This document shows, one piece after another, positions 12,305-22,558 of a DNA stretch of 64,000 bases. A program made the position numbers and the translations under genes. The notes beneath the pieces are model-generated. The model was not told where the DNA came from. It saw only the letters and a program-made list of their open reading frames with translations, and did no database searches. Each line of letters opens with the position of its first letter. The first letter of the stretch is position 1. Location: contig NC_089493.1 in assembly GCF_036850765.1 (NCBI RefSeq), positions 298,956,349 to 299,020,348 of the forward strand, given 5' to 3'. Source of the DNA: Saccopteryx bilineata (taxonomy: Eukaryota > Chordata > Mammalia > Chiroptera > Emballonuridae).

Positions 12305-12430
12305 GCCCCCGCGCATTCACGGACGTCCACGCCTACTTCTCCTGGGAGGGGTGGCCGCCCTGCATGACTGGGAGAAAGCGCGCTGCCCCAACATGTAGAC
12401 TGAGGAACCTGGACGCGCTGCTGCGCAAAG
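12305..12430 (+). pseudogene. Copy A KRAB-domain exon, frameshifted and with TAG
   Basis: It is bounded by CCCCCCAG and AAAG|GTAATG. It codes for the PRDM9-type KRAB-related domain (a D-V-x-x-Y-F core, then D-W-E-K after the break). One base is missing after the Trp codon relative to the KRAB reading frame, and an in-frame TAG follows the N-M codons (about 12,396-12,398). Copy B carries the same -1 and the same TAG, so the damage predates the A/B split. Copy A also differs by a 4-base length change just after the TAG. KRAB in PRDM9 recruits partner proteins and is needed for meiotic function, so this loss matters. Confidence 0.85.
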
Positions 12431-21400: not shown

Positions 21401-22558
21401 CACCAGAGGATACATTCAGGGGAGAAACCCTATGTTTGCAGGGAGTGTGAACGAGGCTTTCTATGGAAGTCAGATCTCCTCATACATCAGAGGACACACA
21501 CAGGGGAGAAACCCTATGTTTGCATAGTGTGCAAGCGTGGCTTTGCACGGAAGACAGATCTCTTCATACACCAGAGGACACATTCAGGGGAGAAACCCTA
21601 TATTTGCGGAGTGTGCAAGCATGGCTTTGCACGAAAGACAAATCTCTTCATACATCAGAGGACACATTCAGGGGAGAAACCCTATGTTTGCAGGGTGTGC
21701 AAGCGTGGCTTTGCACGGAAGTCACATCTCCACATACACCAGAGGACACATTCAGGGGAGAAACCCTATGTTTGCAGGGAGTGTGAGAGAGGCTTTCTAT
21801 GCAAGTCAGACCTCCTCAGACACCAAAGGACACACACAGGGGAGAAGCCCTATGTTTGCAGGTTGTGTGATCGTGGCTTTGCATGGAAGTCAAATCTCAT
21901 CATACACCAGAGGACACACTCAGGTGAGAAACCCTATGTTTGCAGGGTGTGTGAGCGTGGCTTTGCAAGAAAGTCACAGCTCCTCAGACACCAGAGAATA
22001 CACTCAGGGGAGAAGCCCTATGTTTGCAAGGACTGTGAGCGAGGCTTTGCCCGAAAGTCAGATCTCCTCATACACCAGAGGACACACTCAGGAGAGAAGC
22101 CCTATGTTTGCAGGGAGTGTGAACGAGGCTTTACATGTACGTCACATCTCCTCAAACACCAGAGAATACACTCAAGGGAGAAGCCCTATGTTTGCGGGGA
22201 GTGTCAGCGAGGCTTTGCACGGAATGCAGATCTCCTCAGACACGAGAGGACACACTCAGAAGAGAAGCCCTATGTTTGCAGGGAGTGTGAGCGAGGCTTT
22301 GCCCAGAAATCATATCTTCTCAGACACCAGAGAACACACTCAAGGGAGAAGTCCTATGTTTGCAGGGAGTGTGACCAAGGCTTTGCACGGAAGTCTCATC
22401 TTTTCACACACCTGAGGACACACTCAGGGCAGAAGCCCTATGTTTGTAGGGAGTGTGAGCGAAGCTTTGCAAGAAAATTCCAGCTCCTCAGACACCAGAG
22501 AATACACTCAGGGGAGAAGCCTTATGTTTGCAGGGAATGCAAGCAAGGTTTAACATAG
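12305..22558 (+). CDS. PRDM9-like: PRDM9/PRDM7-like gene, copy A (spliced; KRAB broken, PR/SET to zinc fingers open)
   Basis: PRDM9 is a meiotic histone H3 methyltransferase that marks recombination hotspots through a C2H2 finger array; PRDM7 is its close paralogue. Exons recognised by sequence and GT/AG borders: 12,305-12,430 (KRAB), 12,538-12,645 (SSXRD), 15,548-15,648, 15,853-16,124, 16,488-16,555, 18,427-18,620 and 20,667-22,558. The last five join in phase to one frame of 841 codons plus stop, including the zinc knuckle, the PR/SET domain and 16 complete fingers. The KRAB exon has a frameshift and TAG. The SSXRD-to-PR linker exon of human PRDM9 was not recognised between 12,646 and 15,547. 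The gene may be a pseudogene or may be translated from an internal ATG without KRAB. The PR/SET motif has unusual substitutions. Confidence 0.85.
12538..12645 (+). CDS. Copy A SSXRD exon
   Basis: The 108-nt exon is bounded by TTCCCAG and GCGAG|GTGAGG. It encodes the SSX-repression-domain-like part of PRDM9 (F-M-V-H-x-R-Q-A, then T-E-D-S-x-E-E-W). It is open in the frame continuing from the 3' half of the KRAB exon and has the same length as in copy B. Confidence 0.85.
13330..13786 (+). mobile_element. Two adjacent tRNA-derived SINEs (fragment plus longer element)
   Basis: A head fragment of the gccctggcc type (13,330-13,412) is followed by a gcctgaccaggtgg-type element with an A-rich tail. 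Both are shared with copy B (60,933-61,375). Confidence 0.8.
13889..14073 (-). mobile_element. Short tRNA-derived SINE, reverse
   Basis: The reverse complement ends in the gcctgacctatggtgg head. It is shared with copy B (61,490-61,673). Confidence 0.8.
14195..14545 (-). mobile_element. Longer tRNA-derived SINE, reverse
   Basis: Reverse-strand copy of the gcctgaccagg-type family with the 'attgatgcttctcat' and 'caatcaatgaacaact' phrases. It is shared with copy B (62,005-62,335). Confidence 0.8.
14838..15158 (-). mobile_element. Dimeric tRNA-derived SINE, reverse
   Basis: Two tRNA-like heads (ends 'gagccactggct') flank a purine-rich linker. It is shared with copy B (62,632-62,955). A relative lies at 18,768-19,097. 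Confidence 0.72.
15548..15648 (+). CDS. Copy A linker exon before the PR domain ([10 protein letters not shown])
   Basis: The exon follows CTCCAACTTAG and ends CTACCTCT|GTAAGT. It encodes the PRDM9 stretch [11 protein letters not shown] through D-D-D-Y-L, ending after one base of the next codon; the following exon completes a Tyr and starts the zinc knuckle. It contains an ATG (15,576-15,578) that could serve as an internal start. No stops. Confidence 0.88.
15853..16124 (+). CDS. Copy A exon with PRDM9 zinc knuckle and start of PR/SET
   Basis: It lies between CACCCCCAG and TGGCAG|GTAAGA, 272 nt. It encodes the C-x2-C...C-x3-H zinc knuckle (C-E-K-C, then S-C-D-V-H), the G-P-P-T-F-V segment and the PR/SET start with the L-P-P-G-L-R-I and G-L-G-V-W-N-E blocks. 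It is open. Copy B (63,646-63,917) differs at a few codons, for example E versus K and G versus R near the 3' end. Confidence 0.92.
16488..16555 (+). CDS. Copy A PR/SET exon (ITKGRN...NWMR)
   Basis: The 68-nt exon after AAATGCAG ends ATGAG|GTAAAG. It encodes [15 protein letters not shown], the central PR/SET segment, in phase with its neighbours. Confidence 0.92.
16823..16995 (+). mobile_element. hAT-type MITE, 173 bp, with exact 8-bp target duplication
   Basis: Terminal inverted repeats start CAGGGGTCTCAAACTC and end GAGTTTGAGACTCCTG. CTTTAATT flanks both ends (16,815-16,822 and 16,996-17,003). It is non-autonomous, without coding capacity, and sits in the SET intron of copy A. Confidence 0.93.
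17205..17417 (+). mobile_element. hAT-type MITE, 213 bp, with exact 8-bp target duplication
   Basis: Ends are CAGTGGTCAGCAAACTGC and GTTTGCCAACCACTG. GCCTAAAG is duplicated on both sides (17,197-17,204 and 17,418-17,425). It is a different hAT subfamily from the element at 16,823. Confidence 0.92.
17590..17935 (+). mobile_element. Long tRNA-derived SINE in the copy A intron
   Basis: Typical head (gcccggttggctcagtggtagagc), CT-rich middle and a 3' half of the long SINE family. It has no obvious A-tail, so it is truncated or decayed. Confidence 0.8.
18427..18620 (+). CDS. Copy A PR/SET C-terminal exon with altered W-Y-G-D-E-Y motif
   Basis: The exon is bounded by AATCCCAG and CTGGAG|GTGGGC and is 194 nt, open and in phase. 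It encodes [18 protein letters not shown], then [20 protein letters not shown]. Human PRDM9 has W-Y-G-D-E-Y-G-Q-E-L-G-I-K-W-G there (from memory). Trp to Gly, Gly to Ser, Tyr to Phe, Glu to Lys and Trp to Cys changes fall in the post-catalytic SET segment. The tyrosine I know as catalytic (Y357 in human) is kept. Reduced methyltransferase activity is likely but is an inference. Confidence 0.9.
18768..19097 (-). mobile_element. Dimeric tRNA-derived SINE, reverse
   Basis: Two tRNA-like heads with a purine-rich linker, as in the 14,838 element. The head reads ggccctggacagtttgctc on the minus strand. Confidence 0.72.
19391..19604 (+). mobile_element. tRNA-derived SINE with (CT/CTT)n tail
   Basis: Head gccctggctgggtagctcag, internal atttatctttctctctc region and a terminal AATCAATCAATTTTTT. 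The TTC/CTT-rich tract is at 19,520-19,580. Confidence 0.75.
19974..20343 (+). mobile_element. Long tRNA-derived SINE
   Basis: Well-preserved head ggccctggccggttggctc, CT-rich middle and an A-rich tail (AAAAAAAAAACAC). Confidence 0.87.
20368..20528 (+). mobile_element. Short tRNA-derived SINE
   Basis: Head gcctgacctgtggtggcgc, cacatatggaagttgatgc middle and an AATGAATAAATAAATAAAA tail. Confidence 0.87.
20667..22558 (+). CDS. Copy A zinc-finger exon: 16 complete tandem C2H2 fingers of PRDM9 type
   Basis: The terminal exon starts after TTTCAG and is 1,892 nt. It first encodes a lone C2H2-like segment ([11 protein letters not shown], then H-V-K-R-S-H), a linker, and a degenerate finger with Tyr for the first Cys. 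Sixteen intact 28-residue fingers follow (about 21,177-22,520), then a truncated 17th ending at TAG (22,556-22,558). Residues at helix positions -1, 3 and 6 give 14 different combinations in 16 fingers (for example W-E-R, Q-D-I, R-H-I, R-Q-R), while the scaffold Y-V-C-R-x-C-x-R-G-F is nearly constant. That is the mark of PRDM9 fingers under diversifying selection. Acceptor CAGCAG offers two in-frame sites. Confidence 0.95.

Follow-up and report, generated by a model that had tools for sequence, protein, structure and literature searches.

A probable KRAB-less PRDM9 coding paralogue in a tandem cluster of the bat Saccopteryx bilineata

What role PRDM9 has in mammals once its KRAB domain is missing is an open question, and it is touched by PRDM9-like genes that form a tandem cluster in the emballonurid bat Saccopteryx bilineata. 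In the window (the whole stretch of 64,000 nucleotides that was analysed), one member of this cluster, here called copy A, had been described in an earlier note as PRDM9-like, with an open SET/finger frame behind a dead KRAB exon. This description is supported, except that the KRAB exon itself proved to have no stop along its whole length in the frame in which it is entered. The question is whether copy A is a coding gene, and of what kind. Its parts are the following:

11,900-12,700, + strand: CpG island, putative promoter over the 5' end, with a possible first exon to 12,201
12,305-12,430, + strand: KRAB exon, with a 1-nt deletion and TAG as in copy B and an A-specific 4-nt insertion
12,538-12,645, + strand: exon after KRAB, with ATG 12,564 and ATG 12,626, the latter in the frame of the 841-codon ORF
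15,548-15,648, + strand: SSXRD exon, open (PF09514, E 4e-15)
15,853-16,124, + strand: PR/SET exon 1, Y276 and G278 kept
16,488-16,555, + strand: PR/SET exon 2, AG/GT borders
18,427-18,620, + strand: PR/SET exon 3, Y341 and Y357 kept, W356G and G358S
20,667-22,558, + strand: zinc-knuckle, linker and finger exon, with the array at 21,098-22,558 inside, ending in TAG

The five exons spanning 15,548-22,558, which had been proposed to form one open frame, indeed have GT-AG borders and splice into 841 codons plus TAG without an internal stop, and the resulting protein contains an SSXRD motif, a PR/SET domain and 16 intact C2H2 fingers. Within its first 441 residues, Pfam recognized the SSXRD motif (55.6 bits versus a cut-off of 23) and the PR domain (PF21549, E 6e-49), and also SET and C2H2 fingers, and the top matches among 15 PDB entries were 4ijd, 6nm4 and 4c1q, all of them PRDM9. 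The tyrosines Y276, Y341 and Y357, which are described as catalytic, are all intact, and the two exchanges W356G and G358S, which flank Y357, are carried by the cluster. Among the 76 SET columns with a conservation of 97% or more, copy A is substituted at three, each time together with sister copies and never on its own. The exchange G290R was rejected as a sign of the death of copy A, since Arg is found at this position in 47 of 186 non-emballonurid relatives (186 of the 188 have a letter in this column; P0036 numbering, with Y276 as the Tyr of FGPY). If made, the protein may methylate histone H3 locally.

The array consists of one degenerate finger, 16 intact fingers and a shortened last unit ending in TAG; the zinc ligands are intact in 16 of the 18 units, the exceptions being the degenerate first and the shortened last. 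The stop at 22,556-22,558 is a premature end within unit 18 that is shared, as this GLT-stop occurs two times in copy C at 54.66 kb, and decayed fingers follow 3' of the shortened finger in copy A. A finger diversity concentrated at the DNA contacts, as expected of a complete PRDM9, was not found: the contact share of copy A (P) is 0.279 for positions -1, 3 and 6, or 0.335 with +2, compared with 0.90 in Mus, 0.73 in Equus, 0.62 in Elephas, 0.56 in Macaca and 0.43 in Symphalangus. The share is likewise low in the KRAB-bearing bats Pteronotus (0.386) and Phyllostomus hastatus (0.394), and the finger test is blurred by this. Between copy A and P0003, the contact positions are identical in 33 of 33 cases in 11 paired fingers.

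Both lesions reported for the KRAB exon are present: compared with other mammals it has a 1-nt deletion, and a TAG stands at 12,396-12,398. This TAG, however, falls only into the frame in which the second half of the domain is read. Just past it, the A-specific insertion restores the KRAB frame, and the exon reads through with 16 scrambled residues between intact ends. An intact KRAB domain is not recognizable in this product: Pfam KRAB reached 11.8 bits, below the cut-off of 20.4, and an HMM of PRDM9-KRAB matched in split pieces only. With the same HMM, the first half of KRAB was detected in none of 23 emballonurid models and the second half alone in nine of them, from HMM position 16-18, compared with both halves in seven of eight controls, which are not independent of the HMM. 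Parts of two further copies lie in the window:

54,660-55,281, + strand: copy C remnant, the tail of a finger array with the GLT-stop seen in copy A; homology in the 3' flank continues to 56,496
59,916-60,037, + strand: copy B KRAB exon, 1-nt deletion and TAG as in copy A, homology with which gives the borders
60,144-60,251, + strand: copy B exon after KRAB
63,341-63,441, + strand: copy B SSXRD exon
63,646-63,917, + strand: copy B PR/SET exon 1; copy B continues past the window end and is matched by NCBI model P0006

The deletion and the TAG are common to copies A and B, and the S. leptura protein P0022 has the same KRAB frame slip, as read from its reading frames. The break therefore looks older than the copies and apparently predates their multiplication, and the order implied by the earlier note, an intact gene with a recent KRAB loss, looks wrong. 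In a midpoint-rooted tree of 35 rows, the 23 emballonurid rows form one clade (100/99), and copy A groups with P0002/P0003 (87/98) inside an S. bilineata clade (100/98).

As to the start of the frame, the ATG at 15,576 that had been suggested is present, but the exon at 12,538-12,645, which had been overlooked, offers with ATG 12,626 what appears to be the better putative start. It is in phase with the exon at 15,548 and yields 848 amino acids, and two sister copies have NCBI models, P0002 and P0009, that open with matching residues, so that the idea of an alternative start gains support. The reading frame is not disabled, being open over the 841 codons of the five exons, or over 848 from ATG 12,626. 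The ATGs at 12,364 and 12,564 lie upstream in other frames, and initiation at 12,626 would thus require leaky scanning. NCBI model P0005, a chimeric model of the copy A locus that includes retroviral pieces, starts at ATG 12,564 and skips the exon at 15,548; the same skip of the SSXRD exon can bring the KRAB exon and the SET exons into one frame. With dN 0.148 and dS 0.141, the exon carrying ATG 12,626 is, to judge from these rates, evolving neutrally between A and B. The region 12,000-12,450 has a GC content of 0.718 and a CpG o/e of 0.68 versus 0.26 for the window. In the island, 43 CpGs are common to both copies, 26 are found only in B and 10 only in A (p 0.011; TG/CA changes alone 15 versus 6, p 0.078), as if the putative promoter of A were methylated in the germ line. 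The possible first exon is deduced from the N-terminus of S. leptura P0022, and its donor GTGAGC is also kept in copy B.

In neutral simulations since the A/B split, with 4000 runs at each of three assumed distances, the frame stayed open in 0.05%, 0% and 0.4% of the runs, and from the open frame we infer selection on a SET/finger protein over most of the period after duplication. The direct A/B comparison covers 124 codons of SSXRD and the first SET exon only (dN 0.030, dS 0.072), and the difference is not significant (p 0.09 to 0.19). SET exon 1 differs at 8 of 272 sites versus 100 of 1679 in introns (Fisher p 0.045), and pooled with SSXRD (14 of 373) there is no difference from introns (p 0.10). 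Among the amino-acid differences within these codons, at least five seem to have arisen in A and one in B, and selection on copy A may now be weakening. It may be added that gene conversion from a working copy could hold a frame open without selection on A.

The reading that we favour, with modest confidence, is that copy A, a member of a tandem cluster, is probably a KRAB-less coding paralogue of PRDM9 and does not share the role of full PRDM9 in directing hotspots. The KRAB break would have come first, the copies would have multiplied afterwards, and selection on the SET/finger protein during most of the time after duplication would have kept the frame open. Such a protein would bind DNA with its 16 fingers, and it would miss a part that, according to Imai 2017, mouse PRDM9 requires for function; given the missing KRAB, it would act, if at all, on chromatin or transcription in the germ line and not as a hotspot director. 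A competing interpretation, already raised in the earlier note, is a young pseudogene, whose frame was preserved by descent or by gene conversion and which is no longer used and has begun to decay. The CpG-poorer island, the neutral exon at 12,538, the shortened last finger with decayed fingers behind it and the chimeric NCBI model, which suggests that there is no clean transcript, all fit this interpretation, whereas a neutral frame survival of at most 0.004, the lack of A-specific changes at the conserved SET columns and the 16 intact finger units speak against it; we regard it as possible, though doubtful.

That copy A still directs hotspots, either with SSXRD, SET and fingers being enough or with the reopened, scrambled KRAB exon as a substitute N-terminus, would agree with the KRAB exon being open and capable of in-frame joining by the exon skip that P0005 uses, with the three kept tyrosines and with contact shares of only 0.39 in KRAB-bearing bats. 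It is nevertheless very unlikely, as mouse PRDM9 with a truncated KRAB lost its function (PMC5688218, in the part available), PRDM9s that lack KRAB have been argued to have no part in directing recombination (PMC8892340 and PMC5519329), and copy A shows neither an excess of finger diversity at contacts nor a contact change relative to P0003. An assembly artefact with collapsed or chimeric copies comes to mind in a repeat-rich cluster whose copies lie near repeats, and in which copy C joins abruptly at 54,660 to duplicated retrovirus-flank sequence, but it is hardly credible, as the window contains no N, the KRAB slip is also read from S. leptura P0022, and A and B differ along the whole of their shared flanks.

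Related cases are known. In the available sections of PMC10510315, KRAB-less PRDM9 copies have already been reported in phyllostomid bats, and the PRDM9 expansion is called specific to this family. The Saccopteryx cluster resembles that case in being an expansion with many KRAB-less copies, and differs from it in the bat family and in a shared KRAB-exon frameshift that is seen directly in two copies. The main text of PMC10510315 contains neither Saccopteryx nor Emballonur-, our literature search yielded no paper joining PRDM9 with Saccopteryx, and for PRDM9 with Emballonuridae it returned only a bat immunology review, available in part. PMC12122940 contains none of six residue names sought, the available part of PMC13060356 has nothing on bat PRDM9 copies, and PMC8925151 contains neither the whole word 'bat' nor 'Chiroptera'. 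The PRDM9 expansion would extend past phyllostomid bats. A wider scenario, which we consider rather unlikely, is that the KRAB half of PRDM9 disappeared in a common emballonurid ancestor of Saccopteryx and Rhynchonycteris, that no complete PRDM9 was left, and that KRAB-less SET/finger copies then multiplied, some with the W356G and G358S active-site surroundings. If true, these bats would be placental mammals that do without KRAB-PRDM9, their hotspots would be expected at promoters, and the copies would have taken on a new germline role; many open KRAB-less copies with no KRAB-bearing copy among 23 models would be a natural test of the need for KRAB in meiotic hotspot placement.

Copy A shares SSXRD, a PR/SET domain with Y276/Y341/Y357 and a finger array with complete mammalian PRDM9, from which it differs by the lack of an intact KRAB, by W356G and G358S, and by its finger diversity. 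With SET and fingers open and KRAB absent, it corresponds to a partial PRDM9. As in the partial orthologues of platypus and teleosts, an N-terminal loss is combined with kept SET and fingers and a low finger turnover (PMC5519329 and PMC8892340, in the parts available); unlike these, it belongs to a multi-copy tandem cluster in a placental mammal and has kept SSXRD. A PRDM7-like derivative, as the earlier note had envisaged, was rejected. Primate PRDM7 is likewise a duplicate of PRDM9 in which residues around Y357 are altered, but its origin is placed in primate evolution (PMC7943923, available in part), and Y357 is substituted and the array lost there (PMC5519329, likewise); copy A has Y357 and a long array of 16 fingers, and groups with Saccopteryx PRDM9-like copies in the tree.

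Copy A, a PRDM9-like gene on the + strand, is one of several PRDM9-like copies, and the open five-exon frame claimed for it by the earlier note holds: its joined exons give 841 codons and then TAG.

Exons of copy A, all with AG/GT borders
15,548-15,648, + strand, exon
15,853-16,124, + strand, exon
16,488-16,555, + strand, exon
18,427-18,620, + strand, exon
20,667-22,558, + strand, exon

The predicted protein contains an SSXRD motif, a PR/SET domain and C2H2 fingers, its best structural matches are solved PRDM9 SET domains (4ijd, 6nm4, 4c1q), and of its 18 finger units the first is degenerate, the next 16 keep every ligand and the last is truncated by the stop. 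The ATG at 12,626 is an in-phase start for this entire SSXRD-SET-finger frame (product 848 aa), and it sits in exon 12,538-12,645, in another frame than the KRAB-exon read-through. Its context is good (A at -3, G at +4), the N-termini of the database models P0002 and P0009 match this start, and ATGs in other frames lie upstream at 12,364 and 12,564. Among the matches listed, five S. bilineata PRDM9-like models (P0002-P0006) were closest by identity (91-95%), three more S. bilineata matches had 76-81%, and the top row by E-value was P0001 of Cervus, at 64% identity. P0005 is the NCBI model of copy A's own locus.

Pieces of P0005 in the window, mapping at 98.9-100%
12,564-12,644, piece of P0005
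15,852-16,127, piece of P0005
16,485-16,556, piece of P0005
18,425-18,619, piece of P0005
33,579-33,653, piece of P0005
36,376-36,507, piece of P0005

Since this model omits most fingers as well as the 15,548 exon and has a tail of downstream pieces, one with RVT_1 in the precomputed domain list, it is a chimera. The tail of P0002 is similar.

A second stretch homologous to the 5' side of A begins at 58.2 kb. It belongs to copy B, whose KRAB exon is at 59.9 kb and which extends past the window end; the NCBI model P0006 matches this copy. At 54,660 there is also the remnant of a finger array, copy C. In a midpoint-rooted tree of 35 rows, from which P0005 and the model P0189 had been removed beforehand and in which copy B stands twice (P0006 and a partial row), all 23 emballonurid rows fall into a single clade (100/99), and A groups with P0002 and P0003 (87/98) within an S. 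bilineata clade (100/98) that S. leptura P0007 adjoins. Alignment of B to A gives 88.6% over A 11,268-14,163 and 94.1% over A 14,151-16,207. Across this boundary non-exon divergence falls from 7.7% to 6.0%, which is explained in part by the CpG island (11.0% vs 6.9% outside), and the rest could be gene conversion of the SET side.

The frameshift and TAG that the earlier note saw in the KRAB exon of A are both present, but the exon is open when read from its acceptor: a 4-nt insertion after the TAG brings it back into frame, leaving 16 non-KRAB residues between EGW and RNLDALL, and the reading continues in phase into 12,538-12,645. From there this frame meets a stop after eight codons if joined to 15,548, and it can join 15,853 instead, as in P0005. 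The KRAB damage has advanced further in A. A 1-nt deletion between the EGW and DWEK codons is common to A and B, the TAG is identical in both, and in S. leptura P0022 the shifted frame is used for the first half of the exon and the KRAB frame for the second, i.e., the same slip without the TAG (codons back-read from protein). Judged from these sequences, the lesion looks old rather than recent. A PRDM9-KRAB HMM trained on 104 sequences from outside the emballonurids detected the first KRAB half in none of the 23 emballonurid models; in nine of them it matched just the second half, from HMM position 16-18. Seven of eight controls had both halves, at least the PRDM9 reference P0036 having also trained the HMM, and the eighth, a Molossus model, also begins at position 18, so that such a start is no proof by itself. 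Small matches in two models (positions 11-17 at P0021 residues 45-51; 24-42 inside P0012, E 0.3) were taken as chance, as were three weaker rows (8-12 positions, E 0.32-0.37) of a six-frame search of the window, which recovered the A and B KRAB exon pieces in split frames. KRAB was absent from the best 25 of 34 Pfam families listed for the 23 models, and KRAB matches are therefore possible in at most two of them; all ten controls, picked as KRAB-bearing, had a Pfam KRAB match. As the 23 models come from the best 120 of 580, 120 of 159 and 120 of 231 matches, a complete emballonurid PRDM9 copy may exist outside this sample.

A PRDM9 expansion with many KRAB-less copies is reported for phyllostomid bats, and termed family-specific, in PMC10510315; such an expansion is thus of a known kind. 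PMC5519329 ascribes apparent KRAB losses in bats to assembly errors or gaps. Our literature search returned nothing joining PRDM9 and Saccopteryx, its one match for PRDM9 and Emballonuridae was a bat immunology review, and it yielded no earlier description of a KRAB frameshift shared across an emballonurid family.

Transcription of A would start at the CpG island as promoter, the transcript would be spliced via 12,538-12,645 into 15,548 and translated from ATG 12,626, giving a protein that would bind DNA and might methylate H3. Lacking KRAB, A should be without hotspot function; mice with truncated KRAB lack it (PMC5688218), and partial PRDM9 is argued to lack it in PMC8892340 and PMC5519329.

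Whether the frame is maintained by selection was weighed on several lines. When local intron divergence and indel rate were applied to the 848-codon frame in a neutral simulation, it was still open in 0.4% of runs at 0.020 changes per site, in 0.05% at 0.030 and in 0/4000 at 0.040, a rarity that counts for selection. SET exon 1 also counts for it, differing between A and B at 8/272 sites vs 100/1679 in introns (p 0.045). Against selection count the SSXRD exon and SET exon 1 taken jointly (14/373; not different from introns, p 0.10), dN 0.030 and dS 0.072 over 124 codons (difference not significant, p 0.09-0.19), exon 12,538 (dN 0.148, dS 0.141), the lower number of CpGs in A, and gene conversion, which could have kept the frame open. 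In the CpG island 43 CpGs are common, 26 B-only and 10 A-only (p 0.011; TG/CA changes only, 15 against 6, p 0.078), as if the promoter of A were more methylated than that of B, in a comparison with no third copy as polariser. By our reading, at least five of the amino-acid differences between A and B seem to have arisen in A and one in B. Of 170 SET columns, 76 are ≥97% conserved among 188 relatives from outside the emballonurids; at these, A carries three changes: G350D, W356G and G358S. None of them is A-specific, which counts for selection: the first occurs in 22/23 emballonurid rows (A counted, P0005 left out), and the others recur in all four remaining cluster proteins, P0002, P0003, P0004 and P0006. 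At the same columns, eight further emballonurid rows each show 5 to 9 changes, and the 188 relatives a median of 0 and a mean of 0.7, with at least five in 5 relatives.

Position 356 is Trp in 187 of the 188 relatives and Leu in the remaining one; the S. bilineata cluster has Gly there, so the methyltransferase of A may be altered. W356G and G358S, around Y357, are found in P0002-P0006 (S. bilineata), in A at 18,427-18,620, and in P0009 and P0022 (S. leptura), which lie elsewhere in the tree than the S. bilineata cluster; this scatter reflects recurrent change or gene conversion. At SET position 290 (P0036 numbering), the Gly before Y291 is Arg in 47/186 non-emballonurid relatives and also in A and the models P0007 and P0011. 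In a parse of this position (154/218 proteins), all 40 non-emballonurid Arg cases, KRAB-bearing P0055 among them, bear phyllostomid genus names, genera that we take to be Phyllostomidae.

Finger diversity was calculated with the helix positions that we assume to be contacts. The contact share, the part of this diversity at contact positions, follows PMC5519329, and 22 proteins were requested, with P0002, P0007 and the model P0010 dropped for fewer than four fingers. For A it is 0.279, or 0.335 once position 2 is included, and 11 further emballonurid copies span 0.27-0.45; the values are 0.90 in Mus, 0.73 in Equus, 0.62 in Elephas, 0.56 in Macaca and 0.43 in Symphalangus; bats blur this test, as KRAB-bearing Pteronotus (0.386) and Phyllostomus (0.394) are also low. 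The array is frozen between A and P0003 (11 fingers paired in order: contacts differ at 0/33, other positions at 8/275), and P0006 differs from A in four pairable fingers at 5/12 contacts and 4/100 other positions.

Retroviral gag, pol and env-like ORFs (1-5,500; 29,895-34,880; 49,984-52,854) lie before and between the PRDM9 copies, and retroviral domains (Gag_p30, RVT_1, RNase_H, integrase, TLV_coat) occur in seven of eight ORFs scanned.

Possible LTRs of ~525 bp
5,507-6,030, possible LTR
44,889-45,412, possible LTR
53,595-54,121, possible LTR

The stretches 1-6,564 and 48,099-54,662 are 96.3% alike, and the finger exon of copy C is cut at 54,660, where the latter duplicate ends, a possible duplication breakpoint inside the finger array.
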